Below, piece after piece: positions 7,647 through 53,807 of a stretch of 64,000 bases of DNA (positions are counted from its first letter, which is position 1; each line of letters begins with the position of its first letter). Source of the stretch: Telopea speciosissima (Eukaryota > Streptophyta > Magnoliopsida > Proteales > Proteaceae); contig NC_057926.1 in the NCBI RefSeq assembly GCF_018873765.1, positions 35,386,946-35,450,945 of the forward strand. Direction: 5' to 3'. The translations under genes and the position numbers were made by a program. Below the pieces are notes generated by a model that did no database searches, was not told where the DNA came from, and worked only from the letters and a program-made list of their open reading frames with translations.

Positions 7647-10600
7647 ATGCCTAGGGTCTCCGCTCTCGACTTGCCTGATTTGCCCAAGGGGCAGCTCCCT
7701 CCGCACCTTGAGCTTCAGCGGACTCGTGTCCACTGTGCAGCTGATGCTCCAACGCATGTATGTTTTCCCCACTCATGATGGTTGTACAGTTTTCATTTTT
7801 GGATTCTTGTGGATGCTCTATTGAAGTTTTTTCCCCATCCCTTTTCACGAAGTTATTGTTTTCTACTGCCTTCTTCTTCTTCTTCTTTTTTTTTTCACGT
7901 TTTGGGAGTCTTTATGTTTGAAGACAGATAATATTCAATACTCTGGTGCCTATGCAATGATGGGAGTTGATAATGGTTCTCGGTTGGATGAGTTCTGCAA
8001 AAAGTTCAGAGTCGAAGTGATTCGACTGACGGAGGACGATATGGAATTCGATATGATTGGTATCGATCCTGCCATAGCCAACGCGTTTCGGAGGATCCTC
8101 ATAGCAGAGGTATGATTTTTACGAGGTCCATCGATCCTCATTCACTACATTAGCTTTTTAACATTTTCCTTGTTCCCCATAGCATTGAGAATTGACTTGT
8201 CTATGTGTGTTGGATTAACCCTCCCTTTTTTTATCCATTCTATTCTTCAGACATTTGGTTTTTTAAATTGAAGTTTTTTAAACGATGGGCGTTCATGTTG
8301 ATTCGATTTTATGTTTTTTTCTTCATCCTGTTACTTGCTATTTAATGGGTTTTTTCTGTTACTTGCTGTTATTTAGTTTGAAAGTGACTTGGGAAAAAGT
8401 GATGAGAAAGATATTGAGGGCTTTGGGTAACGTATATAGATTGAAACAACATTAAATGGCAAAATAGTATCTGTGGGGCCAACCCTATTTAGCTGGGAGA
8501 AGAATTAGATGAATTGAGAACCCAATTTGCACCATCCATTCAAACTATACACCAATCGCATGGTGGTAAATTTTCAAAAAAATTATTATTTAGTGTGTAA
8601 CTTCTTTAACAAAAAGGATTAGTTGGGCTGACTGCTCATTTGCATGCTCCATTCTAATTGTGCACTGACAGTATGGTGTAAAATTTTGAAAACAACATTT
8701 TTCCAGTGCCTAACTTCTTTTAACTAAAGTAGAAGGTAAAAAATCTTAAAGTAGGTCCTTGCGACAAAGTTTCAGTGATCCCATGTATTTCAATAATTCA
8801 TGAACAGGAAGCCATGTTATGTAGGGCTTTTGTCAAGGTTGAAGTGTTGGTGATGAGTATCGAACTTACAGTGATTAACATGGTCTTAGATAGGTTTGGA
8901 AAATTGGTCCTAGTAGTCATCTCTTCTATAGATGGGAATGGATAACTCATATGCAATTGTTCATGTGAGCCATCAAGCGAGCAATTGCTTCTACCGTGAA
9001 TGGGTATAGGATCTGACTTAAGGTTCTAAATCTCGATGCCAAGGCTGGTTTCGACCAGCCAAGAAACTGAGATTTTCCAAGTTTCGACTGAAACCAGGTC
9101 AAAACCTGGTATTTTCTGGCAAAGCTCGACATTTCGTGTGCTGTTGAAACTGGTCGAAACTAGGCTGGGCAAAACTTGGTATTTTTCGGTCGAAACTGGT
9201 TGAAACCTGACTTGTGCCAAGTTTTGTCTCAGTTTCGCTGGGTTCTTGAACCATGATCTGACTGCCAAACCTCATCCATTCTTGATTGGGTTGCCTTTTT
9301 CTTTGTCCAGCAGGGTAATGTTTTAAGTTCTCTCTCTCTCGTGGTTGTTTCCATTTTATATTCAAACCCATTTTCATTGTTACAGTATCACACTGTGATG
9401 GTATGTTCGTTAGTTGGCATTCAGTGCTCTCTTTATGTTTGTACCCTTTCTGTTGTAATTGTTGATGGGGTTGGCTTTTCATTTGATGTGTTTTAAATTG
9501 GTAACTACTATTGCATGCAGCTCCCCACAATGGCTATTGAGAAGGTCCTGATTGCTAATAATACATCAATTATCCAAGATGAAGTGCTAGCTCATAGGTT
9601 GGGACTCATTCCTATAAAGGTCGACCCAAGGCTGTTCGAATATATGTCAGGTTTAGATGAATTCACCATGTGTTACAATACCATGTCTCTTTAACGTCTT
9701 GTCATCCTTCTTACTAATTATTGGCAACTATTAATTTGTAGAGAACGATACCCCGAATGAAAAGAATACATTAGTATTCAAGCTTCATGTTAAATGTAAA
9801 AAGGGTGACCCCCGTCTTACAGGTAAAATTATTTTTTTTTCTTTCTAAAGCTCTGTTGTGTGTGTGTGTGTGTTTGTTGGGGGTAATTGGTAAATGCGAT
9901 GCATTTTGCAGTGAAAACAGATACTCTTAAGTGGTTGCCCAATGGGAGTGAATTTCTACTCGCATCTGAAAACCCAGCATCAAATCCAGCTTCGAAACCG
10001 AAAACTTATACATCATTCACTTGTAGCCAAGACTCATTGCCAGAATTTTCCGACCAACCAATTGCCCCTAAGCATAATGATATTATTCTCGCTAAGCTTG
10101 GACCAGGCCAGGTAACTGTGTTGTCTATTTCATCTTCCTATTGGTTATTTTTCTACAACTAGGTTGTTTATGTTTTTTATCTTGAACAGATTGTTACTAT
10201 AAGACATTACAGTATAAAGGCATTTGAATAATTATGTTTGTGACCCTTTAAATTCTTCCTTTGGATTCTAGTTTATTTGCATAAATAAATTGAACACCAA
10301 CTATAATATCTAGGGAAAATTACTGCCCTCTCCCCTGTACTTTGCCCTAATTACTCACTCCTCCCTTCGATTTTGCCCACTTACATGCGATTCCTTTATA
10401 GTTTCCACAAAATTACTAAAACCTCCCCTGCAGTTAGTTTCCGGCTGTTAAGTCGTGACGTGGCGTATTTATATTTTTTCTAATACCAAAACTAACCCTG
10501 GGTCCATGTAAATTAGACCCTTTTACCCTTTTGATTAAAAAGGATTCTTCTTTCTTGTTCTTCTTCGTCCTCCTGTAACCCTACCCACCCCCACCCCTCT

Positions 10601-13600
10601 GCAATCCTGCCTCATTATTGACAACATCGCTGACTTCGCTGCCAAACCCAATGCTAGAATTGTGAATGATTAACAGAAACCCATATCTATTGTGTTTTTA
10701 CCCCTTGCCTCTGCAACTTTGAGGCAATTGAAATGCAGTGATCTTTAGGTTGTTTTGCTAGTGAGAACCCAACTCCCACTGGAGATTCAACGAATAACAA
10801 ATTTGCTTCTACAACATCAAAAATAGAAAAGAATCTGAAGATTCTAGACTGATAAATCCCCATTATAAAAGAAATACAATATTTGGAAGAAAAAACCTAA
10901 TGCGGAATCTGTACTTCTGCAGGCACAAAATGAACTCAAGTCCAACTCCGTTTCTTTTAACACAACTAGGGCCCAATTCAACAGCAGCGTCATATCCTAT
11001 TGATGAACAACCAGGACCTAATACATAAAAGTGGAAATACAGAGGAAAGAAAAGGGTATTAAGTAGGAGAAGGAAACAGGAATGGATGAATTAATGAATA
11101 AAAAGGAAGGAGAAGGAGAAGAAGAAGAAAAATAAGAGGAAATGGGGGTAGGTGATTGATTGATTGCTACGGCCTACCTCCATTAAGCCAGAGAAGGAGA
11201 GGCCTCTTGGATGGTTGAGATTGAGCTTCAAAAAACCAGTAGAACAGAGCCCTACCTAGATGGACGGTGATGTAGCCTAAGAAGTGTGAGATGGGTGGGT
11301 TTGAGGGCTGACCTGGGAGAAGAGTAATCCTATCAGATTGCGGGGTTGCAGGTGGTGGGTTGGTGTAGGTTTACTGTGAAGCATTAATGCCTGTAACAAA
11401 GAATGATTCAAACCCAATAATAAACTCAAACAGTGAGAGTAGAAAGAAGAGAGGCGATGTCGCTGAGGCTTCAAAGCAGGGGGAGCAGGGCGGTTGTGGT
11501 GAGGGATTTTTAGTTATATGCTTGAGGGGTTTTCAGGCCATTGGATTTGACAGTGTTTTAATCGATTTGAGAACAAAGGCAGTGGAGGCGGCGGCGGTGG
11601 TGGTGGAAGAGGAAAGATAGAAATGGGTGATTGAGGTTGAAGATGAATGTTTGAGTTAAAATAAAACTGCAAGCGTACGGGTCAATCGTAGCTACGGGTC
11701 GAACACGAGGAGATATACGCTACTCTATTTAACTAATCTTAAAAGTAATGCAAAGTGAACCAAATTACTTAAATTACTAAATTAATGGTAATTAAATTAA
11801 CGGATCCTAACTCACAAGCATCTAACAAATTACGCATCTACGGGATTAAGTTGGCGTCCTAACATATGAACATCTAACCTATCAAACTAACGCAATTGGG
11901 AGTAATTAAAAATAAAATCCTATACTACCAAGTTGGAAGTAATAAAAATGCAGCCACACATCCGCATCCACATAAACAAAATAACCACATAAATAAAGTA
12001 ACCCATAAGAAAAAAAAAAGAAATAGAGGGAGGAGAAGAAAAAGAAGAAGGAGAAGGAGAGAATGAGATTGAGAGTTTAGAGAATGCAAACCTAGATGTG
12101 CTTGAACCGGATTAATTGAAGAAGCTTGAATGAATACTTGCATGAACTTACCATGGCCTCTTCTAAATCTCCAAGTCTTGTCATCACTATAGGAGCTTAG
12201 ACTAGGAAGCTTTAAACTAAAACTATTACAACCATATTGAAGACATTAAAGCATAAACTAATCCTATTACAACCATTAACTAATCTTATGAAAGCAAACT
12301 TAAGAACTTGAAAGAACTAAAGCCCAACATAGGAGAAGAAGAGAAAATTTCACTAAGTGAATGAATAATTTTTACAAGAGAGGTAGGGGTATTTATAGCG
12401 GGAAGAGAGGAGAAGAGAGAAGAGGGAAGTGTAGGAGAAATATTCCCTAAGAAAAGAGAATATTCTCTTCTCCTTCCTCTTTTACAATGTCTTGAATCCT
12501 AAGAAAAAAGAAAAAAATAGAAAGAAGAAGAAGAGAAGATTGTTTACATAGACCTTCTATTTCTAGAAAAGTAAACTTCCAATTCTAGCAAGTGCTTCAT
12601 TTTCTTTGTAGATATCTTCTCCAAGCAATAAAATCAAAGCATCTTTGATTTTTCAACCTTCCATAGATGAGAAAATATCTTTCAAAGTAAATCTATCCCA
12701 AGTAGAATTCCAGAAGTGCCCTTGGAAAGTTGGAGGGGAGAGAGAGTGATGTTAGGATTCCACTCATAATTAATGAAATGCCAAATCTATCCTTCAAAAA
12801 ACGTGGAGCACATTTATGTGTGAAATCTTAGGGCATAAAGCATATATTTTACCACATTGGACAGAATTACTCGGTGCTTTCTTGTGCTTTTCAGGGTTTA
12901 GGTGAATTCTTGTGAAAATGGAAGAGATGATGCTAAGGAAATGTTTTTAAGCTCTTTAGAGGTGTCAATAGTATGGATGCGTAGCCCATCGAGTTAGCTT
13001 CGCAACGGTTCAAACGGCGCTTGATTTCGAGTTGAAACGAAGAAGTTAAAGCCGTTTTAGTAACAACGCACGAAAATGGTATGCAGGGGTTTATTTATAA
13101 TTATTGACAGTCGATCGGGGACAAAGTAAAGCGGAAGTTTGGATTCGAGGGGTTTTAGCGCAATAATTAGAAGTTATCCTTTCTGTAGCCGAGAGATTCC
13201 GTTTGGAAGGCTCTGGATAGTCCAACTTCAACTTGAGATATCTTGGGCTCCCGAACTCCAAATTGGACAAAATTTGGGTCTATTTTGGGCGATTTTTCAC
13301 AAGGAACACAATGGTGAAGCCTACATAAGCACCCCATGCTCCACGTTTTTTGACGAACAGATTTGGCATTTCATTAATTATGAGTGGAATCCTAGTCATC
13401 ACTCTCTCTCCCCTCCAACTTTCCAAGGGCACTTCTGGAATTCTACTTGGGATAAATTTACTTTGAAAGATATTTTCTCATCTATGGAAGGTTGAAAAAT
13501 CAAAGATGCTTTGATTTTATTGCTTGGAGAAGATATCTACAAAGAAAAGGAAACACTTGTTAGAATTGGAAGTTTACTTTTCTAGAAATAGAAGGTCTAT

Positions 13601-16600
13601 GTAAACAATCTTCTCTTCTTCTTCTTTCTATTTTTTTCTTTTTTCTTAGGATTCAAGGCATTGTAAAAGAGGAAGGAGAAGAGAATATTCTCTTTTCTTA
13701 GGGAATATTTCTCCTACACTTCCCTCTTCTCTCTTCTCCTCTCTTCCCCTATAAATACCCCCTACCTCTCTTGTAAAAATTGTTCATTCACTTAGTGAAA
13801 TTTTCTCTTCTTCTCCTATTTTGGGTTTTAGTTCTTAGTTTGATTTCATAAGATTAGTTCTTTCAAGTTCTTAATTTTGCTTTCATAAGATTAGTTAATG
13901 GTTGTAATAGGATTAGTGTATGCTTTAATGTCTTCAATATGGTTGTAATAGTTTTAGTTTAAAGCTTCCTAGTCTAAGCTCCTATAGTGATGACAAGACT
14001 TGGAGATTTAGAAGAGGCTATGGTAAGTTCATTCAAGTTTCTTCAATTAATCCGGTTCAAGCACATCTAGGTTTGCATTCTCTAAACTCTCAATCTCATT
14101 ATCTCTTTCTCCTTCTTCTTCTTCTTCTCCCTCTATTTCTTTTTTTTTTCTTATGGGTTACTTTATTTATGTGGTTATTTTGTTTATGTGGATGCGGATG
14201 TGTGGTTGCATTTTTATTACTTCCAACTTGGTAGTATTGGATTTTATTTTTAATTACTCTCAATTGCGTTAGTTTGATAGGTTAGATGTTCATGTGTTAG
14301 GACGCCAACTTAATCCCGTAGATGCGTAATTTGTTAGATGCTTGTGAGTTAGGATCCGTTAGTTTAATTACCATTAATTTAGTAATTTAAGTAATTTGGT
14401 TCACTTTGCATTACTTTTAAGATTAGTTAAATAGAGTGGCGTATATCTCCTCGTGTTCGACTCGTAGCTACGATTGACCCGTACGCTTGCGGTTTTATTT
14501 TAACTCAAACAATGAAGAAAAGGGTAGCATTGTAATTTCATTTCTGATGTTTTAGTAAAAGGGTTAAATAGTCTTTTCAAGACAATAACTAACAGCAGGC
14601 TAACCCCGTCAGCCAGAGGGGGTCTAAATGTAAGTGGGCAAAATCGAAGAGAGGATTGTGTAATTAGGGCAAAGTATAGGGGAGGGGGCAGTAATTTTCC
14701 CTAATATCTAAAATCAAGGATTTGGGATGTTTTTATGTCGACCCAGCTTCAATTGGTATGTCCTAGTTATCATTGCTAGATGCAATGTTACAGATCTTTG
14801 GCAACCTCCCTGTGGAATCACATATCTATATGCGTAGACATGGATTTGACTACAATGTGGTAGTGATTCGGCTGGGTTGAGTCCTTTCATCTTTTTTTCT
14901 TTTCAAGAAAAAAGCTGCGACAAAGACTGGAGTTGCTGGAGGAGGAGGAAGAGGGGGAAGAAAAAGAAGTAGAGGAAGAGGGAGCAAAGGGGCTGGAAAT
15001 TCCAAGTAGGAAGAGAAGAATAAGAAGACGGAACAAGAGGAGGAATAAGAACGGGAAGGAGGAGGGAGTGGTGCATAACTGGTTTGAGCGTCTCTACCTT
15101 CGAACTCCGAGAAGCGTCTTTGACTGCCTCTGCCTTTCTCTCTAAAATTGCTAAGACTGGGTACTACATACGTAATATAGAATCCTTGGGTTCACAACCA
15201 AGGGTATGGACCCTAACTGGAAATTTTTATTCGACCCAAGTACTTTAGCCTAACGACCAAAGCCAGAAGTGTGTTCCCTAATTAAGAACCTCTATTCTAG
15301 AATATTCTTCCCTGTAAATGAAATTGAAAACAAAAATGCCTTACATTTCTGTAGTAATCATGTTTATCTAATTCAGATTATTTTTATGAGAAAAAGTTCT
15401 TTACATTTTATATTAAAGTTTATACACCTCCAGTCCCCAAATCCTAATTTTTTCAAATTTAAGGAGTCCAACACCCCATGCTTGTGTTGGATTCTGACTC
15501 GTGCACACACCCATATCCTGGTAACATGGGTGACTTGTGTCAATTATATGTTTGATGTTAATGTAGTAGAACTTGGCTGACTCTATTCTTTGTTGACCTT
15601 GTATTTGGATCAATCCAAGTTTTGCATTTCATGCTTGATAGTTTTACTAGCAAGGAATCTTCATTTTCTCCTTTGCTTCTTGTCCATATTAATGGTTCCT
15701 ACCTTCCATTTCTCTCTTTGTTTCCTCATTTTTTTTTTGTTTTACCATACTCCTTACTGTAGCAAACGTTCTCCTAGGGGTGCCACTTACATCCTGGGTT
15801 CTTGTTTTTGTTGCTTCTTCAAACATTCGTATCTCACAACCATAGTTCGAGGACTCGTTTCGTTTTGGTATTTCGGACTGACCGAAATATTCGAAATATT
15901 TGAAATTTCGGATATTTCGGTCGAAATATTGTATTTTTTCTGGTATGTTTCGATAGGTCATTCCGGTGGGTTTTAGGCCAAGTTAAGGCCTGAAACTTCA
16001 TGGAAACCTTATTTTAGGCTATATAAACACATTTAAATGTTCAAATTGCAAAAATAGTCACCAAAATGGTGTTTTGGATGTGCACCATTGATTGGCAACG
16101 TACGGTCGAACCCTAATGTATAACTTAGTTAATTACACATTTACACATACACATTGTACATTAAACAAATGAATTCACTTGGAACTAAGTTGGAAATATA
16201 ATGACTCATAAATTAAGTCATAAATCATAATATTAAGTACATAAGACATCAAGTCAATAACAAGTTAACAAATAACAACTTAAGAGTTAAGATTTAAGAA
16301 TATGATATCAAACATTCCAAATTAGAATATCCCCAATTGTCCCCTACAAGGCTAATTGTCCCCTACAAGGCTACAAGTCAAGTAGTCAACTAGTCATCAT
16401 TCATCTCAAATGTTTACAAATTTGCTAATAATAACTACTTTGCCGTCTAGGATCAACCCCACTCATGGTCTGCTGGAGTCGACGTGTATTGCTCTCCGAC
16501 TGTAGGACAAATGCATGCCACGTCATAGTCTAGGAGAAGAAGCGAGTGTAGTCATCCACAGTGGCCATGTAAATCGTATCATCAACATGTCAAGGTAACC

Positions 16601-19600
16601 TATCCTAGGATATAGGTCACCAAATCGTGAAGAAGTACTACCCATGATCCACTATGATATGAGTCATATGACGGTTCGGGAGCATATACGGGTCGACGGC
16701 TGCTGGTGGGTTGGGTAGCCAGGGTAGGAAAAGAAGTCATCTACAAAAGACGATCCACTATATCCCTGTGAGTGGGAGTCATACTCAAAACTGGGAATGG
16801 ATGGAGAAGATATAGGCGCTACCCCCAGGGTACGCGCCTGAATGCCCTTCGCCATATGGATGTGAATGAGATGAACCATGCTCGATTATCTTTGGAGATG
16901 GACTGCTGTCTACATGAAAAGATGGGGCACGGAAATGCCCCCCCCCAAACACTTGATCTCTTGTCTCTATCGCCAATACTCACCCACCAAATGAGCCAAA
17001 TAGGGCATCAATGTCCATAAGCTCGGCTTGCCTACTAGTACCACTACCACGACCACCAGGATGGGACTGGCCACGCCGCTTTCAGAGTAGTAGGTCGAGG
17101 TGGACGATGTGGGCCGTGTGGCTGGTGTGGGGGCATGGATTGCCTCTTGCTGCTCTTATACCACAAACGGGACTCGAGTTCCCTCATATGCTTGACCACC
17201 ATGACCATCATCATCACATCCATCATTACCTTCATCATCACCTCCATCATTACCATCTCCACCAGGACCACCACCACCATCTCCACCAGATGACGTAAAC
17301 CAATCTTCATCCTCCTCATCAACACCACCGAGGGTCGAACGGTATGGGTGACGCGTCCGTGCGTGTACCTCACCCTCTGCACCCATGAAGTCATCCACAT
17401 TAGCTTTATGTGTTCAGCTATCATGGGGCCAGGTCTACCTCCAGGCTGATCTAACACTGGCTCACCTCTATCCCTCACCCAATCAACAATAGGATCTTCA
17501 TCATCTGACTCCACCTGGAAAATGTCGGCGAGATCGATATTTTCCCTGATACCCTCTTGTCCCATGCGTATGTGTTGCATCTTCAACCTCAAATTATAAT
17601 GCACATACACTAAGTCAGAGAGACGTTCAGAACCCAATCTATTTCTCCTCTTAGAGTGGATGAGAGAAAATGTATTCCAATTCCGTTCACCCGGATCTTG
17701 AACATGTCAGGAGAGAACCTTGATTGCTATTTTTCTTAAATTGTCTGCCGAACCCCCATACAACACCCACCATTCAGCTGCATTACAACAAAAGAAACAT
17801 GTCATCTTCATTTCAAAAGAATAAGATATTGAATTGAGTAATGACTAATGAGTATCGGCATCACCGCGTGTCCGGCCTTGCTCTGCAGCATTGGTTCCAA
17901 AATTTCCCAATGCATTCCTAAAAGTCTTCAACTATAATCATTTGGAAAATATTTAAAATTTGTAATGACTCATTACTATTTAGTATTGAATTGAGTAATT
18001 CCAAATGAATTATAACTTATAAGACTCACCTCATTGTTGCATATCGCCTGTAATTTACTATTCGGCTTTAACTTGGCAACTATTTCTTTGACTGCGTCAA
18101 TAAGACTATTATTCAACCCAAGCCTATGATGTATTGATACTTGGGGTTCAAATAATATGCTGAAATTGACATTACATATTGACTAGTTAGTAATATATCC
18201 TTCAAATTAACTTTAAAAGATGTAATTGCATAAAAAACAAAGAGTGTACACTGACCAGCCTTATGCAGTGGATGCATAAGTTGATTTTCCCAACGCTCCT
18301 TGATAATTTTGAGAAAGAGTTTACTACCTCGTGGATTTGTATTGTAAACACCTTCATTCATCAAGTCTATTGCAGCATATAAATGTGGCATGGTTGGTCC
18401 CTTGAGAGCAGAATCAACTATATGCAAAACCTTGACCACTGGGTCCAGAAGTTGTACCACTTTATGCAATTTAGACCAAAAGTCATCTGATGAAATTGTA
18501 GCTTGTGCTTCCCTACCACCATGGGTATTGGACCTATTCCAGTTGAACCAGTCTTCAGAAGCAAACATTGATCTCAGTCCAGACTTCTTGGTCTCTATAC
18601 TCTTGAGTGCAATGTAGTTGGTGGCGAATCTTGTTTTGCCTGGCCTCACTAAGTCACCCCCACACTTCTCCCTCAAGAGGTTTAGTACAAACCCATGGTT
18701 GTAGACAAAGTTGGTCATTTGCCTTGCCTTTTCTACAACATGTTGTACCAATTTGATCTTTCCCATGTCCTTCAACATGAGGTCTATACAATGGGCAGCA
18801 CATGGAGTCCAAAACAACCGGTACTTCCTGTTTTGCATCAACCTCTCACCGACACTCTTGTAGTTGCTTCCGTTGTCCGTTACAATTTGGACAACGTTCC
18901 CCACTCCTACATCTACTACCACTTCCTTCAGCAATTTGTAGATATACTTTGCATCTTTTTTCTCCTTGGATGCATCAACAGACTTCAGTAAGACTGTCCT
19001 CCCATCACAATACACCATAAAGTTGATGATGGACTTTCTTGTAGAACCAGTCCAACCATCATATATTATGGTCACCCCATAGTTCTCCCACAGCCCCCTC
19101 ATTTCATTGATGTAGTCTTCAAGCTCTCTCTTCTGCTGGGGCAAATACACATTCATAATCTCATATGGGGTGGGCCCCTTATACCTTGGGCCAGCCTCAG
19201 CAATGGAATCTATCATAGTCTAATAAAAGGGGCCTTATGCTGTGTTTGCTGGGATGGTATGGTATAACATCCACTTAGCTATAGATTCCTTCACCATCCT
19301 CTTCAGATTTTTCCATGCTCCCTTGATTTTTGGTTGTTTGTTGCCTTTCTTTCTATAAACACCAGGTGCTTTGTGAAGTGCTGGGTCATCTTGTACTGGT
19401 GGAGGCGGAGGGGGAGCTGCCCTCATACTCTATGATCTCCTAAAGGGATTAGGCAACCCACCTCCTCCACTTGTGCCTGCTCCTCCATTACCACTAGCAC
19501 CAACTCTAGAGGTACCAGCTCCTCCACTACCACCTACTCTCTGTCTCTCCTGATCCTCATGATAACTGGCTCTGCTCATCATCTGTGCTCGTCTCCAATC

Positions 19601-22600
19601 CCTAGCCTCTCGCTCAGTCTCTATATCATCAGGAACATAGACATCATCACTGTCATCATCACCATCATCACAATGGCCTGATTGGCCTCCCGCTGTACAC
19701 CTCACTGCTTCCTCAAGATCTACTCTTGCCTTCTCCCTCTGAGCCTTCCTCTTACTCCCTCCCTTCATGTAATCAATGACAACCCTAGATACTTCCACAA
19801 GGACCATATGACATGCGACCACTTCAGGAGAATTCCCAGCTAGATGTTGTTTGAGCTTAGTGGCACCACCTCCCAAAAACTGCATGTGACAATAGTTGCA
19901 TTGGGATTTTCTTTTATCCCCATCAATTGGAGTGCCATGCAACCATGCAATGTCACTCCTAGTGCGCCTGAGTGTGCTCCCCTCCCCCTGGGTCTGGGCC
20001 GGCTGCCTCTGCCCCTCTTGCCTCTGGCTCTGTCGCCACGGTTCGCCATAATCGGACTAGTTTACTGTTGCATGAATAAAAGACAATACATTAATCGTTG
20101 AAGCACATCAATTCTTTTAGTTTAAATGTTTAAGAATTAAGATTTAAGAGCACTAACACAAGTATATAAGTATATAACTATTTAATATTTTTTCCCTAAC
20201 CCTCATTCTTCTCATATTTAAAAACAATTTTTAAAAATATTTTTCACATAAATATTGGCCTAGCACAACAAAACCGAAATTTTATGCAAATGGGCAGCAA
20301 TAAAACAACATGTAGAATTTACTTATAGCTATTTTGTATTTTTCCCCTAACCCTCATATTTTTCTCATATTCAAAAATGATTTTTTAAAATATTTTTCAA
20401 ATAATTATTGGCCTAGCACAACAAAATCGAAAAGATATGTAAATGGGCAGCAAATAAGAAGTATGTACAAATTATTTTGATATTTTTCAGTAATTTTAAA
20501 ACAGAAACCTCATATTTTTTCTTCTTTTTTGTTATTTTTTGAATTTTTTAAATATTTTTTATAATTTTCGAAAATTAAAATAATTAATTATTGGCAGAAA
20601 AATATTTTTGACACCATGAGGCCATAGATCGGCCAATGGTGTCTAACATATATTTAATTCATCACCATACAATATACATAACCCCTATTATTTTTTTTTA
20701 TTTTTGTTGTAAATAAATCCAATTTTTGAAGCAGAAAAATAAATAAATAATATATATACCAAAAAAAATTTCGACACTGTGAAGTCGTAGATCGGCTTCC
20801 GGGGTCTAACATATATTTATTGCATCACAAACAAACATGTTGATCATGCATTTCCCTAAAAAAAATCAATTTTGAGAATATGGTTTTACCTGGAATAGTG
20901 GAAAGGCTTCACAGATGTGCTAAGAAGTTTGTTCTCCAAGTGATTCCGGCGTAGATGCGGCAAGGATTCAAGTGGGAAGTGGAAGAATGGAGAAGAAATG
21001 AGCAAAAACCTTCAAAAATCAAGCAAAAGTGCAAAACTAGAGCTGTTTTTCAGTCTCGGTCGAAATTTCGACCGAGACTGACGAAACATGTTCATTTATA
21101 TAAAGCAATTTCTCGAGAAACTCGAAATCTCGCGAAATTTTGAAAAACTCTTGAGATATATCGAAATTTCGAGAATTTCAATCGAATTTTTGTATTTTTT
21201 ATATTCGAGGTGGCATTTCGTTTCGAGGAGGTCGAAATTTTCGAAATCTCGATCGAGATTTCGCGAGATTTTGAACTATGCCCACAACTAGTTACTGCCA
21301 TGATTTCATCATCATTTCTGTCTTTTGGGTTAAGGTTTCAGTTTCTGATTGTTATTAATAATCACAGTTTAATTAAATATTAAAAGTGGTCTTCGTGTAC
21401 TGTGTTATATTTCTAAGCTTTTGAGGGCAGCTTATTTCTGCTTGCTTAAGTTCCCTTCTGCAGGTCCACTTCTATGGTGAAAATTTCTCTTGGTAAGATG
21501 AAGTAATTTGATGCTTCTATGTAATAGAAGTTATAATAGGAAATGCTTAGTTAAATCTAAGATTGAAACAGACTTGAACCGCTGACATCCACCACAGGGT
21601 AAACCACCGCCTCTCAGGCCTCCCCATTTTATTCTACCATAGAGGCCAACAAACACAGCTTACACCTTTCATCGCACTATGCTCTCCAAAGAGCAACTCT
21701 TCTCAAAATCTCAGAAGGTGCTGAGTTGTAATCCCATTGTAAGGATTCTTGTGGTTCCGTAGAATCCAGCTATAGGAGAACCAGGAATGGAGAGCTTTCC
21801 CCCCATTTCTGCCCAACTCTTTGGTCTTAAGAATGTTGGTTTTAAGAATGAATGATTGCCCTTCTCCGACCCTTACTGCCCAATCTAAAAGCAGATGGTT
21901 AATGCGTTCCACTTATTGAACAAGGTTCTATGGTCAGTCCATGACCGCTCCGAATGAAGGTCATCATTGATATTGTCACTATCATCAATATCGTCACTAT
22001 CATCAATTAAATAACCTTTAGGCTTATCATCCAGGGACTTGTTCGGAAATACCGTAATGAAAGGAACATAGGAGTTTGTCCCTAGGTATAATCTAACTTT
22101 ACCTTTTTCTGCAGGAAATTGAACTTGAAGCACATGCTGTTAAAGGGATTGGTAAGACTCATGCAAAGTGGTCCCCAGTTTCCACAGCTTGGTATAGGAT
22201 GCTTCCTGAGGTAATAAAAAGATAAATATTTTATACTAACTTTTGTGCTTAATTTAAGAGCCAGGTTCTGTAGAAAGATATTGAGTTCAAGTTTGTTTGT
22301 TCTGAAGTAGGTTGTGTTATTGCAAGAAGTGGAAGATGAAAAGGCTGAAGAGCTTGTGAAAAAATGCCCAGTTAATGTATTTGACATTGAAGATTTTGCC
22401 AAGGGTAAGGAACCATGTTTTTTCAATTATGAAAGTCATTGTATATTTTCTTGGGTTGAACTAATTTGATCTGTTGTCGATGCAAATAACTATTGCTTTT
22501 AAAAATGTTGGTGCCACTTTCTTACTCTCCTACAGGGTCAATGAGTGGATCTATGTTAGGAGAGGTAGTGTCCAACACGTGAATTGGTTTGACAACTACA

Positions 22601-31048: not shown

Positions 31049-32069
31049 CAAGGTTCTAAAACTCGGGTTTCAATTAGGTTTCGATCAGCCACAAACCGAG
31101 TTCATCTCAGTTTCGATCATATCTCAGTCAAAACCTAGGACTTTCTTCAGGCTAACTCGAACCTTGATTTTGAGGCCCAGAAGTTGTTTTATTGTCATGA
31201 TTCTTGTTGTGTTACCTATTTTTGACGTTTTAAACCCAATCCATGCACTAGTTTCACATAGAGAACATAAAAAATATTACTTGTGGTTTTGATCTAAGTT
31301 TGATACTGCATATTGTTCTTGGACAAGGTACCAAAACATAACTCCTTCAATAAAAATGAGATTTAAGCAATCTTGGATTTGTTAGAAAGCTTTGTTTTGA
31401 TAGCTTTCCAACAAGTTTAAGATTGATTGCTTAAATCTGATTTATATTGAAGGAGTTATGTACCAGTCAAACTTAATTTGGTGTGTCCGAATGCTGTCAA
31501 AATTGCTCTGAATGCAAATACTTTTTTGTACATCAAAACAAATGAATATTTTACCGCACTTTTGATTTTTAACCATGTTTTACTATATTAAGATTTATGA
31601 AATTTTTAGATTTGAGAAAAACTCCAACATTAGAAAGTTGAAAATTGCACTCTACCGTCGAAAATCTAATTTTTGTTCTTGAATTGAGGGTTGACTTTTT
31701 TTTATTTGGAATTTGATTTTTTAACTATTTTTATTGGATTCAAATTGGGGGTATTTGCTTATTTATGAATAATACCTTAAGTAAATGAAATACAAATACA
31801 AAAACATTTACTTAAATGATATTAGACATAACTATCTGTGCTGGTTTCTAAAAGTTACTGGCATAAATACCTGTCTGTCCCAGTTTTGAGTCAAGTTTCC
31901 CTAGTTTCGATGGGCATATGTGTCGAAACCACTGAAATATGGTCGAAACCATCGAAACCCAGTCGAACCCAGGGATTTTATAAAATCCCCCTTCAACTCG
32001 TCTCGAAAACCTATGAAACCGAGTTAATTCGGTGGTTTCGATTGATTTCGATCGAGTTTTTCTTCCATG
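31049..32069. mobile_element. Non-autonomous hAT-like element, 1.0 kb
   Basis: Flanked by gttgaaag (31041-31048) and attgaaag (32070-32077), 7 of 8 bases alike. The ends resemble the local hAT family: caaggttctaaaactcg at the left, and catggaagaaaaactcg for the right end reverse-complemented. Subterminal regions carry many gtttcgat/cgaaacc motifs. It has no transposase frame. It contains a strong hairpin at 31338-31459. Confidence 0.6.
31338..31459. repeat. Imperfect inverted repeat (about 55-bp arms)
   Basis: Left arm from ataactccttcaat to ttagaaagct and right arm from agctttccaaca to attgaaggagttat are nearly complementary, with a short loop. The transcript would fold into one long hairpin. 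It lies inside the hAT-like element, so it is probably a transposon-internal palindrome. Confidence 0.6.
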
Positions 32070-42520: not shown

Positions 42521-42664
42521 TGAGTATTGGGGGCGGTCAAGTGCTATCGTGCGGTTGGGCATCACCCATGTGTGTACGGTGGGGCTCACTATGCACACAT
42601 GGGCGGTGCCCCAGCCGCATGATGTGAACTTGACCGCCCCCAATACTGGGGGCGATAATTTTCC
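42521..42664. mobile_element. Palindromic MITE, Mutator-type 9-bp TSD
   Basis: Flanked by taatttata at 42512-42520 and 42665-42673. The interior folds on itself: agtattgggggcggtcaagt at the left is mirrored by acttgaccgcccccaatact ending at 42647, with central arms around cacccatgtgtg and cacacatgggcg. The right end extends as ggcgataattttcc, the usual Mutator-like terminus, while the left end lacks that short tail. It has no coding capacity. Confidence 0.65.
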
Positions 42665-43529: not shown

Positions 43530-44685
43530 GAGGAGGAGATTCTATCTAAAGAATTAGTCTCTCTCTTAGATTGATTTGATTTTCGGGAACTCAAATCTTC
43601 AACAAGTTGAGATCATTCTAGAGAGAGAGAGTTGTAGATTGGAATCCAGTGTGAGCTTCTACTAGCTGCCGGTGTCTCCCAACCATAGGAGTAATGTTAT
43701 ACCACTCTGAGTATCGCAAGTCGGAGTCCGAGTTGGAGAAGAATTTAGAAACTTTCGACCTTTCGTATTGGAGAAGTATACCGTAGATTGGAAGAAATTA
43801 CGAATTTCTGTATTTGAAGTTAGAAACTTTCGTATAACATGGGTATAAAAATCAATGATTTAGATTTCATTATTCTGAATAAAATGTTAGGATCATTGGC
43901 GACCACCAATAGGGTTAGCTGGTTTGCCGACCAGAAAACCTTTTGCCATATTTTAATTAACTCTTAGTTAATATAAAGTAGGATTTCCATCTCATATGAC
44001 AAAAGTAATTTTTACTTGTATAAAAAATATGCCCAAAATCACATCACATGTTTTAAAATATGCAAGCCCATTCAAAAGCCCAAATTTCAATTTTACATAA
44101 TACAATATTATGTGGGCCCCACCAAAGTCAAACTAGGGCTTTAAACATGGGCAAATTATAACTACAATAGACCCAAAACAATTTTAATATTGTTTTTAAA
44201 ATGGTCCATAAATAATTTCTAGAACTATTTTTAAAGTGATATGTAAACAAATTCTAAAAACTGTTTTTAGGATTTCAGGGGTTGGCCCATTCGGTATGGG
44301 CTGGACTTTCTTATTAATTTGAGGTCGATTATGGTAAAGGTCCACATGGGCTTTAAGTTAAATAGTTTTAATTTTAAGCCCACTTACACACCCAACCCCA
44401 CTAATAGATTAATAGACCCTTACACGAGACTGCCCGGGTGGGGTGATGTCGTCATTTTTGCCCCCCTATGAGAGGAACCTACAAACCTGACCTGTTAGGG
44501 AACCTAAGAATAGAAAAATTCGGCTTAGAGGGTGCGGGCTTACCTGCCTTAGCCATGAAGTCTAGCTTCCTGCAGTAGCTTCGGGCGATTGGCCCCTATG
44601 GATTGACTTCCTGATGCTATCATGAGCAGTACCTATAGGCCGACGGCAAAAACCTTAAAATAAATTTGGGAAGCAGCTTTCTGTA
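43530..44685. other. Intergenic, no recognised gene
   Basis: Stretch with gggcttta/aagcccaa motifs around 44040-44400 and a moderately GC-rich block at about 44420-44640. No protein or element ends were identified. Confidence 0.35.
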
Positions 44686-44818
44686 TGGGAGTGTGGCCTA
44701 CGCCAGCACTCCCATGAGTCTATCTCTCTCCTCCTTAAAACAAGGTGGCAGAGGTGTTATTTCACATGGGGAGGAGAGAGATTGACTCATGGGAGTGTTG
44801 GCGTAGGCCACACTCCCA
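44686..44818. repeat. Long hairpin of dispersed-family 5' ends
   Basis: Arms of about 50 bp are almost perfect mirrors: left tgggagtgtggcctacgcc through ctctctcctcc, right ggaggagagagat through ggcgtaggccacactccca. They enclose a loop of about 35 bp. The arm sequence resembles the start of the dispersed 190-bp repeat (gggagcgtggc...gcgtcagc), as if two such starts met head to head. Confidence 0.6.
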
Positions 44819-45062
44819 GACAAAGATCTTTTTCCTAATAAATTTTTTTTTAATGTGCAACAGAATCATGAAAGCCACAATATTGAATTCCAAATCAGAA
44901 TATTTCACACAGAAGAGATGCGCTCTGATATCATTGTTTGGTGGGCAATGCCCAATAAGATACAAAAGCGGGAAGAGGTAGAATACCATTAGGTAACTTA
45001 CCTAATCCGAATATCTACAATATCCATTAATTTAATGGTTGTTCTAATGATATATGGATAAG

Positions 45063-50543: not shown

Positions 50544-51548
50544 TATTTAACTCCATTAATCCCATCTGGTGAAGTAGGAAGAGTCGAGTGGGACCCAGCT
50601 TCCAATGGTGACTTTTAACCTAAGCCTACTCTAATTTAAAGCTTAAAATAGAGTTTAAATTTATAGAATAAGCTAAAGCAACTAACCGTGTGGGGCACTT
50701 ATTTTCTTTAATTTTTTTTATATTAATTTTTTGTTTAAATAATTAGGCAAAAGTTTTCATACATTTGCACGATCTGCATTAAATGCAGTCGAATTGGCAT
50801 AAATGCCGTTTGAAATGACATAAAAGCCCTTGAATCCTTGTTTTATGGAGTTGATGAGAGAATCTCTCTAATTAAAAAAAGACAAAAAAGAAAGAGAAGA
50901 ACAGTAAGGTAAGTAACGTTGAACCAAAGCCGTTTACTCATTATTCCAAGACTCCGTCAACGACAAAATATCAATCCAACGGTTAGAAAAGTAAAATCGG
51001 TTTCGGATCCAACGGATAATAATTTTAAAAGTATTCAAATATAATTTAATCTAATATTTCTATGTAATCAACTAATCACAGGGCGAGACAAGAAGTAACG
51101 CATATGAAAAGGACTGAAGGCCGAGACGAACAGAAACTGAGACGTCGTCTTCGCTGTCAGCTTGCCTTCTATTCCAGGTTTCTATGGAAAATCTCTTTCG
51201 TTTTAATTCTTCTTACTATCCCCATTTCTAGATACCCAGAAAAATTTTCCTCAGATTCTTCTTTGTTGTAAGTTTTTATGTTATTGGTTTTCTGTTAATT
51301 TTAATATATATGTTTGTTTCAGTTAAATTTTTGGGGTTTAGTTGTTTTCTTTGGGTTTTTCGTGATTTTGAAGTAATGGGTATGGATTTTTTTTTTTCCA
51401 GCAACTTTGAGTGTTGATCAAGAATCACGTCACTGTGAGTTGTTGAATTTTGGGTTTCCGATCGTCTGAAACTTCAAAGGTGAGGTTTTTCGGGGGAGGA
51501 TTCGGGTTGGAGAACTGATTAGGATTTTGGTTGAAAAGGGTTTGAAAA
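50544..51548 (+). promoter_or_regulatory. TOL1: TOL1 upstream region and 5' UTR with likely intron
   Basis: Sequence from about 51085 looks like a 5' untranslated exon (gagacgtcgtcttcgctg). A T-run followed by cag at 51399-51401 looks like an acceptor, so a leader intron from about 51180 to 51401 is likely. No TATA box is assigned with confidence. Confidence 0.4.
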
Positions 51549-53807
51549 ATGAGTGACAATCTTATGGAGAAAGTCAGTGCGTTCGGAGAACGCCTGAAGA
51601 TCGGAGGAGCAGAAGTGGGGAGGAAGATGACTGCTGGTATGAGCTCTATGAGCTTTAAGATGAAGGAGCTTTTCCAGGGACCAAACCAGGTTGATAAGAT
51701 TGTCGAGGATGCGACTGCCGAGACCTTGGATGAGCCTGATTGGGCCACCAACCTTGATCTCTGTGACATGATTAATCATGAGAAGATAAACAGTGTTGAT
51801 TTGATTAGGGGAATCAAGAAGAGGATCATGCTGAATAACCCCAGGGTTCAGTACCTGGCTTTGGTCTTGCTGGAGACTGTTGTGAAGAACTGTGAGAAGG
51901 CATTCTCGGAGGTTGCAGCGGAGAGAGTCTTGGATGAGATGGTGAAGCTTATTGATGATCCTCACACTGTCGTAAACAATCGGAACAAAGCTCTCATGCT
52001 AATCGAAGCATGGGGTGAGTCCGCCAATGAACTGCGGTATTTGCCTGTTTATGAAGAAACTTACAAGGTAACTAAAGTTTTTCTCACTTTATTTCAGTGC
52101 AGACGTCGTTTTTTCGAACTGATTTAACCGCTATATGCACTGGATTAATCAGGGAAATAGTTGTACTTGATCCATGGATACAAGAGAGAATTTGTTCAAC
52201 TATAACTTTGACATGGGCTTCAATTTTTAATTTGGATTGTCATTTTCAGATTAATTTCTAACTGGAAGTAGAACTTCTAAAAGCAACGAACTGCAGAGAT
52301 AACTTGAAGAGATGAGGAAATTATGAGTGTCTAGAAATTTAACTCCAGAATCAAGGAAACTGTATTTGACTTGATAATCTTAGCAAGTTGAACTAACAAA
52401 GGATTGTAAAGGAATCACAAGTCATGGTTATACGAGCCAAATAAAAGGTAAAAGAATAATGCTCAACAAGTACCTTAACTAAAACAATGTGGCTAAGTAG
52501 GCAACTACTAGTTAGTCAACTCGTTTAGCCAAGACCTTATCCACTGCATTAAGGCAATACAGTCAATGTATCATAAGTTGTGGATGTGTTCTTGCCTGTT
52601 TGATTAGTTGCGAATCAATTAGTTATGCAGTTAGTGTTATTTTATGCTTTTCAAGTTTATATTAAGAGCCAGGGAACTATGATGGTAATTTATCATCTTC
52701 TTAGTTGGAAAGGGATAAATTAATATGTTGATCCCAATATCTGAAAATCCAATGATCCTTCCACTAAGGTTTTGATCTGTATATATAAAGGCACAAATTA
52801 TGTGGCTTTTGGTTTTGTTCTTCCTGAACGATGAACTGTATGAATACTAAACCTTAAGATGCTTACATTTGTTAATTTGATTGGAGCACTTAGTCATTCA
52901 CATGGGGATAAATTAACAGGCTGTGCATTTCTTAGAAGGGGGAAAATAAATAAATAAAGCCAAGGAAGTGAAATAAACCATGATATATGACCTTATTGGC
53001 TCAGAACAAATATTATGGGATTTGAAATATGGTTGGGAAAATGAAAAAAGAAAAAAGAGGAATTCTGAGTTAAGTTTTTGAAGAGATAGGGAAGAGAGAC
53101 AAAACTAATTGAACGGGGTGAAAGACGAAATCAATAATTCACTGTTGGAGCTCTACAGCCAACAACTCAATTTCCATTAGACATTCGTCGGCATGTAGAG
53201 TTCGTTGTAAAACACATACTTATTGAGAGCTAACTAAATGTTATGATTAGTTGGGTCTCTTAATATGACTGTAATACTTGAATTTAAAGTTGGGCTCAAA
53301 AACTTAGCTGGCAATTGAATAAAAACGGAATCGCTAGTATGGAAAAAGTGGAATCTTATTAAAAAGTAGTAAAAGCATGTGTCCACCCCCCTTGTTCTGG
53401 AATGCTGTAAAATCATATTTCCTATAAATAGTAAATTTTGAACTTAGTATAAGCAATAAAATTGAGATTTGCTGAAAATCATAATTTACTAAAAAGTGAA
53501 TTCTTAAATTCTAAAAAGCCTAAAAAAAATTGAATTTATTACAAATAATAGATTACGATGTAACCGTAAATAGTCTCATACGAACCAAATTACCCTTAGA
53601 AAAAAACTCTGATTTTTTATGGGCCCTGTTGACATGTGGAAATAGCCTTAAAATAAACCTATGACTATTTGGCATCCATATCCAACATATTAAGTCACAG
53701 ATTCAGATACTGACAGCATAGACACACATTTTGACTTTCAGTTTTCCACTTGATTGATCTCTCATCATCTTAACTTAGTAATGCTATGGTTTCACTCTCT
53801 CTCTTTC

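Follow-up and report, generated by a model that had tools for sequence, protein, structure and literature searches.

Insertions that depart from the ordinary form of a retrotransposon have been described in two settings close to the one considered here. Four direct complexes of three long terminal repeats (LTRs), each with 5-bp duplications, were ascribed to template switching (Sabot and Schulman 2007; PMC1950507). During double-strand-break repair in yeast, according to another report, inverted insertions are made from single-stranded DNA through inverted microhomology; 16% of 342 such insertions carried identical barcodes, meaning one molecule, and the remainder formed between molecules (PMC11724301). 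The locus described here lies in a 64,000-nucleotide stretch of the Telopea speciosissima genome (assembly GCF_018873765.1, contig NC_057926.1, positions 35,386,946 to 35,450,945), called the window below, and occupies its positions 11648 to 14511. It is a real, single, inverted LTR insertion, a new form within the known class of aberrant reverse-transcription products. The most probable account, at roughly 0.7, is a single 2864-nt insertion of an abnormal LTR-retrotransposon complementary DNA (cDNA), the U5-U5 product of a fold-back or a template switch.

The locus resembles the complexes of Sabot and Schulman in its probable origin from abnormal reverse-transcription cDNA, in its insertion as one unit, in the 5-bp duplication and in the near-identity of the outer LTR sequence. 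Those complexes are large and direct, with three LTRs and two internal regions, whereas the window insertion is inverted, consists of LTR only and has U5 on both sides. The yeast foldbacks of PMC11724301 share with the proposed mechanism a 3' end that anneals to inverted microhomology, either within its own single strand or on a second one, and is then extended into an inverted duplication; there the substrate was a 69-nt oligonucleotide inserted by end joining, and here it would be an LTR cDNA of ~1.7 kb with an integrase-type insertion. Like the solo LTRs of its own family the insertion holds only LTR sequence and has a 5-bp duplication, but those solo LTRs are full TGAT...AACA LTRs with no inverted copy. 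It has the palindromic outline of FB-like or MULE-type transposons with long terminal inverted repeats, and differs from them in its LTR sequence, its 5-bp duplication and its origin in a single event. No U5-U5 foldback LTR insertion was described in the titles and abstract beginnings listed by literature searches among open-licence papers; a report in print may exist.

Structure of the insertion

The features of the insertion and of the transposon that it interrupts are as follows (window coordinates, strand, description).

10304-10312 and 14702-14710: 9-bp duplication TAATATCTA of the host transposon
10313-14701, no strand: older host transposon, presumably MULE-like, with terminal inverted repeats GGGAAAATTACTGCCC..., interrupted by the insertion
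11643-11647, no strand: left 5-bp target-site duplication ATGAA; site uninterrupted in 11/11 fetched paralogs, exact with a single ATGAA in 8
11648-12810, minus: the final ~1175 nt of the LTR, inverted; this copy measures 1163 nt, has a 26-nt deletion of its own and points its U5 end outward
12390-12397, minus: TATA box of the inverted copy
12806-12810, no strand: 5-nt microhomology GAGCA, shared by the inverted copy (as its end) and the LTR (as nt 5-9)
12806-14511, plus: one LTR copy from nt 5 to the 3' end, lacking TGAT only; aligns to the reference LTR 5-1706 in one piece
12811-13336, plus: "spacer", the front (U3) of the right-hand LTR; contiguous with the arm in 38/38 other copies
13337-14511, plus: "right arm", the last 1175 nt of the right-hand LTR, U5 end outward
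13750-13757, plus: TATA box TATAAATA
14512-14516, no strand: right target-site duplication ATGAA

The two arms, 11648-12810 (1163 nt) and 13337-14511 (1175 nt), are inverted copies with 97.7% identity and form the strongest repeat within the window (blastn). Their alignment has 1147 aligned pairs with 1121 matches and 26 substitutions, plus seven gap runs. The pentamer ATGAA stands outside both arms (11643-11647 and 14512-14516); two random 5-mers would agree by chance with a probability of ~0.0013. The inner flanks are unlike, CATTT (12811-12815) against CCCCA (13332-13336). Each arm has a TATA box, forward at 13750 and reversed at 12390-12397, and given these orientations both arms would be transcribed outward. 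In all these points, the inverted orientation, the TATA boxes and the inner flanks free of separate duplications, an earlier reading of the stretch from its letters alone (the sequence-only reading) was correct.

The genome (822.9 Mb) was searched with the right arm, a check which that reading had proposed; 5065 first-look candidates gave 41 scored matches, many of them full length and arranged in same-strand pairs ~8.9 kb or 5 kb apart. The "other copies" referred to throughout are the 38 loci besides the window's own (L003-L040). Fifteen of them (14 called 5' LTRs, and L018) carry AGTTTTT after the LTR end and then a stretch resembling a primer-binding site, 13 are 3' LTRs preceded by a polypurine tract, eight are solo LTRs, and three, L018 included, are of other kinds. 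Reverse transcriptase, RNase H and integrase domains are encoded between one LTR pair (Pfam domain scan). Judged from this domain set and its order, by a domain-order rule that we take to hold, the arm is assigned to a genuine Ty3/gypsy-type LTR family, presumably leaning to Athila/Tat if our guess from the primer-binding site is right. The LTR character claimed for the arms is thus borne out by direct LTR pairs and solo LTRs elsewhere in the genome. The 5-bp duplications of the eight solo LTRs are exact in seven and have one mismatch in L022; those of seven full-element LTR pairs are exact in four, have one mismatch in two and are unmatched in L013/L010. Five base pairs is the usual duplication length for plant LTR elements, as stated in PMC11963269.

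Neither arm is a complete LTR. In 38/38 other copies the 526-nt "spacer" runs straight into the arm (the front of the spacer is missing in L011 and L019, and L016 and L026 have a gap in it), and the true LTR start, nt 1-3, TGATGAGCA or a variant, is reached by 36 of the 38. Since spacer and arm form one contiguous LTR whose start lies further out, the idea that each arm is a complete LTR with TG..CA at its inner end is rejected; the spacer is the front of the right-hand LTR. Against the reference LTR (L004, 1706 nt), window positions 12806-14511 correspond to LTR 5-1706 in a single piece, and the left arm to inverted 535-1706. Similarity between the arms does stop at TG/CA on the inner side, as the sequence-only reading had it, but this edge is no LTR boundary: the inner TG/CA results from the sequence at the GAGCA fusion and is a coincidence. 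The insertion contains no internal sequence, so that it is not a pair of direct LTRs with an internal domain. It is not a solo LTR either, which would have the U3 end at one border, the U5 end at the other and the full TG to CA; the first 4 nt of the LTR are absent. At either outer border the insertion ends in U5, with the cut falling precisely behind CTCAAACA. Neither border has the AGTTTT that stands between the LTR end and the primer-binding-site-like stretch in 15/38 other copies, which fits integrase-processed ends.

Three observations concern the family at large. L018 (G000:C8:34346969-34348222) is preceded by a polypurine tract and followed by a primer-binding-site-like stretch, and in this it resembles the middle LTR that is shared in a three-LTR complex. 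Two copies on its contig, L020 and L039, have a 3' flank in common with L018, which suggests duplication. L013/L017 and L010/L011 (G000:C6) share 5' or 3' flanks and appear to be duplicated segments and not separate insertions.

A single integration into a host transposon

The insertion lies in an older transposon (10313-14701) whose terminal inverted repeats match over 81 nt at 92.6% identity; the superfamily name, MULE-like, is our assumption. The left flank of this host has 39 genome matches besides the window. Eleven of these paralogs were fetched, namely the matches that score at least 194 bits and extend to the insertion point (shorter matches extending as far were not included); all 11 are uninterrupted there. 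Eight read GAAGATGAA followed across the insertion point by GAAAAGG, with a single ATGAA; the other three (L066, L069 and L071) read GATGAT followed by GCAAAA or GTAAAA. Compared with the paralogs, the target has no base missing and exactly 5 bp doubled. The intact target and the 5-bp doubling together mean that there was one insertion, bordered by a U5 end at either side: the inverted layout is the single integration of an inverted-end molecule. The outer ATGAA repeat is therefore a true target duplication, as had been proposed.

As a control, 60 loci with LTR matches were compared. Both strands were matched only in L001, L002, L043, L028 and L050. The first three are the window's own place, and the opposite-strand match in L028 is 40 nt long. 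L050, together with L063 (G000:C1:50081616-50086044), is a chance head-to-head LTR pair in which the left LTR has an intact start and a duplication of its own, TTTAA. This layout is how two independent LTRs look.

The fusion junction

The insertion consists of an LTR minus its first 4 nt (TGAT) and an inverted copy of that LTR's last ~1.17 kb. At the fusion, GAGCA (12806-12810) is common to the end of the inverted copy, where it follows ACGTG, and to the LTR start, where it follows TGAT. In random joins of this LTR a microhomology of at least 5 nt has a probability of 0.0068, and the minus strand of the window's LTR copy contains a single GAGCA. The break lies 4 nt from the LTR start, adjoining the polypurine-tract side.

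A genome-wide search for the 21-nt fusion pattern with up to three mismatches gave 134 matches (control 14). At zero mismatches it occurs once, in the window only; the 99 other matches listed all have three mismatches and are mostly ordinary LTR starts, and the order of the list implies that none has one or two. None of the other 38 LTR copies was found with an inverted partner. Exact matches to the 28-nt U5 end number 746 in the genome (363 + 383; control 0); among the 100 of them that were listed, all on contigs other than the window's, inspection by eye showed no outward-facing pair within 100 kb. Sibling events may exist elsewhere.

Kinship and age of the arms

The arms are sisters with a support of 0.975 in a FastTree tree of 40 sequences. 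Among the 31 differences between them, 13 involve a state absent from all other copies, compared with 123/271 in seven within-element LTR pairs and 1231/4153 in random pairs, which may include a few same-element pairs drawn in reverse order. States present in at least four other copies account for 6/31 of the arm differences, 42/271 within elements and 1346/4153 in random pairs. The private-state share of the arms resembles that of within-element LTR pairs, which points, weakly with 31 sites, to divergence after the insertion. Two different parental elements for the two arms are weakly rejected by the sister placement and the private-state counts. Private deletions of 26 nt in the left arm and 12 nt in the right arm are absent from 18 other copies.

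The Kimura distance between the arms, 0.023, corresponds to 0.9 million years at an assumed substitution rate of 1.3e-8 or 2.9 million years at 4e-9. A search for excess mutation in the U3 of the window copy was negative: 12 of 530 sites are private there as against 12 of 1172 in the arm, an imbalance that is equalled by other copies, L015 for example, and exceeded by L016.

Mechanism and alternatives

The following course of events would produce such a molecule. Minus-strand cDNA, having copied U5, R and U3, would halt with 4 nt of U3 still to go. The TGCTC at its 3' terminus would pair with the sole GAGCA, 531 nt back on its own strand (snap-back), or alternatively with GAGCA on a sister cDNA within one particle (template switch). 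From there reverse transcriptase would synthesize plus strand across R and U5 as far as the minus strand's 5' end, which coincides exactly with the end of U5. The complementary strand would be made next; it may have been started by minus-strand strong-stop DNA, which is identical in sequence to the 5' end that is needed. The result would be a linear duplex with two U5 ends, which integrase could insert with a 5-bp stagger. One such fold-back or switch step would explain why the break lies near the LTR start, why there is microhomology, why the inverted copy stops exactly at the U5 border and why the arms are nearly identical. We infer these cDNA steps from the structure of the insertion, which itself is observed.

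Several points weigh against this course. A snap-back hairpin has one free U5 end, and a two-ended duplex needs an extra priming step. When the window copy is folded, the 3' terminal bases pair with GAGCA at a probability of ~0.34-0.36, and the bases 5' of these prefer other partners. Among nine other copies folded, a set without L014, only L010 prefers the GAGCA pairing. The minus-strand fold is no stronger than shuffles (z -0.25). Twelve of the 31 arm differences carry states present in at least two other copies, and 31 are few for a private-state test. An event of this kind was found only once, and the same-molecule and two-molecule routes are indistinguishable. The specific route, in which a self-primed minus-strand cDNA becomes a U5-U5 linear duplex, perhaps through a second use of strong-stop DNA, and is accepted by integrase in a plant, is put forward as tentative, a little short of an even bet.

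The alternative with the most in its favour is that integrase, in one concerted reaction, attached two cDNAs to the target through their U5 ends, after which their free inner ends were trimmed and closed by microhomology-mediated end joining of the host. Integrases are able to use two U5 ends in the test tube, and such a course gives the two U5 ends, the single 5-bp duplication and the 5-nt microhomology with no conversion of a hairpin to a duplex; near-identical arms fit as well if both cDNAs share one source. By itself, however, it offers no reason for a break only 4 nt from the LTR start, and it requires that everything else in both cDNAs was lost; the LTR pieces have no trace of internal sequence between them. 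Such a two-molecule route closed by end joining is a fair rival, though an unlikely one beside the abnormal-cDNA insertion. The sequence-only reading had offered self-integration, in which an LTR end attacks the interior of its own cDNA or of a sister cDNA and the resulting molecule is inserted later. This is known for retroviral and Ty1 cDNA and yields inverted LTR segments. It would, however, join an intact processed end, whereas LTR nt 1-4 (TGAT) are absent here and the fusion has 5 nt of microhomology (GAGCA), and it would consume the ends required for the second integration. What survives of that proposal is the inverted-end molecule and its single integration; self-integration itself is very improbable.

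Equally improbable is the independent insertion of two opposite solo LTRs followed by a fusing deletion. Chance head-to-head pairs do exist, such as the one at C1:50081616-50086044 with its TTTAA-flanked left LTR, and microhomology deletions are common, but the uninterrupted host paralogs show nothing missing and exactly 5 bp duplicated, both LTRs would have to strike one 5-bp site, and the arms are sisters in the tree. In its ordinary form, two independent solo LTRs, the idea is refuted by the paralogs, as the sequence-only reading had argued from the inner flanks. That reading's other suggestion, a foldback or long-terminal-inverted-repeat DNA transposon that merely resembles an LTR, would supply long inverted ends, a middle part and a direct target duplication. 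It fails in that the sequence is LTR sequence, from a family whose elements have direct LTRs, a stretch resembling a primer-binding site, a polypurine tract, and domains of reverse transcriptase, RNase H and integrase; moreover the exact junction occurs once in the genome and there is no inverted partner among the 38 other copies. The chance that it is correct is slighter still, and that of an assembly artefact, a palindromic chimeric read or misjoin, is just as slight: fold-back artefacts are known in long-read data, but the arms differ by 26 substitutions, each has its own private deletion, and an exact target duplication flanks the whole insertion.

Significance

Read as an abnormal-cDNA insertion, the locus would be a dated molecular fossil of a reverse-transcription error. 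It indicates that a U5-U5 molecule can be inserted with a normal 5-bp duplication in a living genome, and would provide a way for an LTR retrotransposon to produce a palindromic locus in one step. Palindromic loci can yield hairpin RNA and silence their own family, as may happen here. If the self-primed U5-U5 route is true, reverse transcription has a separate side path by which foldback LTR loci arise in a single step, and their transcripts could fold into a ~1.17-kb hairpin directed at a family that has at least 746 exact U5-end sites. For annotation, inverted LTRs may represent one event and not two, and a repeat edge with TG/CA is no proof of an LTR boundary.

Other features of the window

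Frames with a DUF659 domain and a BED zinc finger lie on the minus strand at 18116-20056, a combination that we take to be typical of a hAT-like transposase. An exon-like frame with a VHS domain at 51546-52124 on the plus strand is probably part of a host gene. Three stretches, at 44657-44850, 31336-31461 and 42523-42647, match their own reverse complements at 75-80% identity and are perhaps small palindromic elements.

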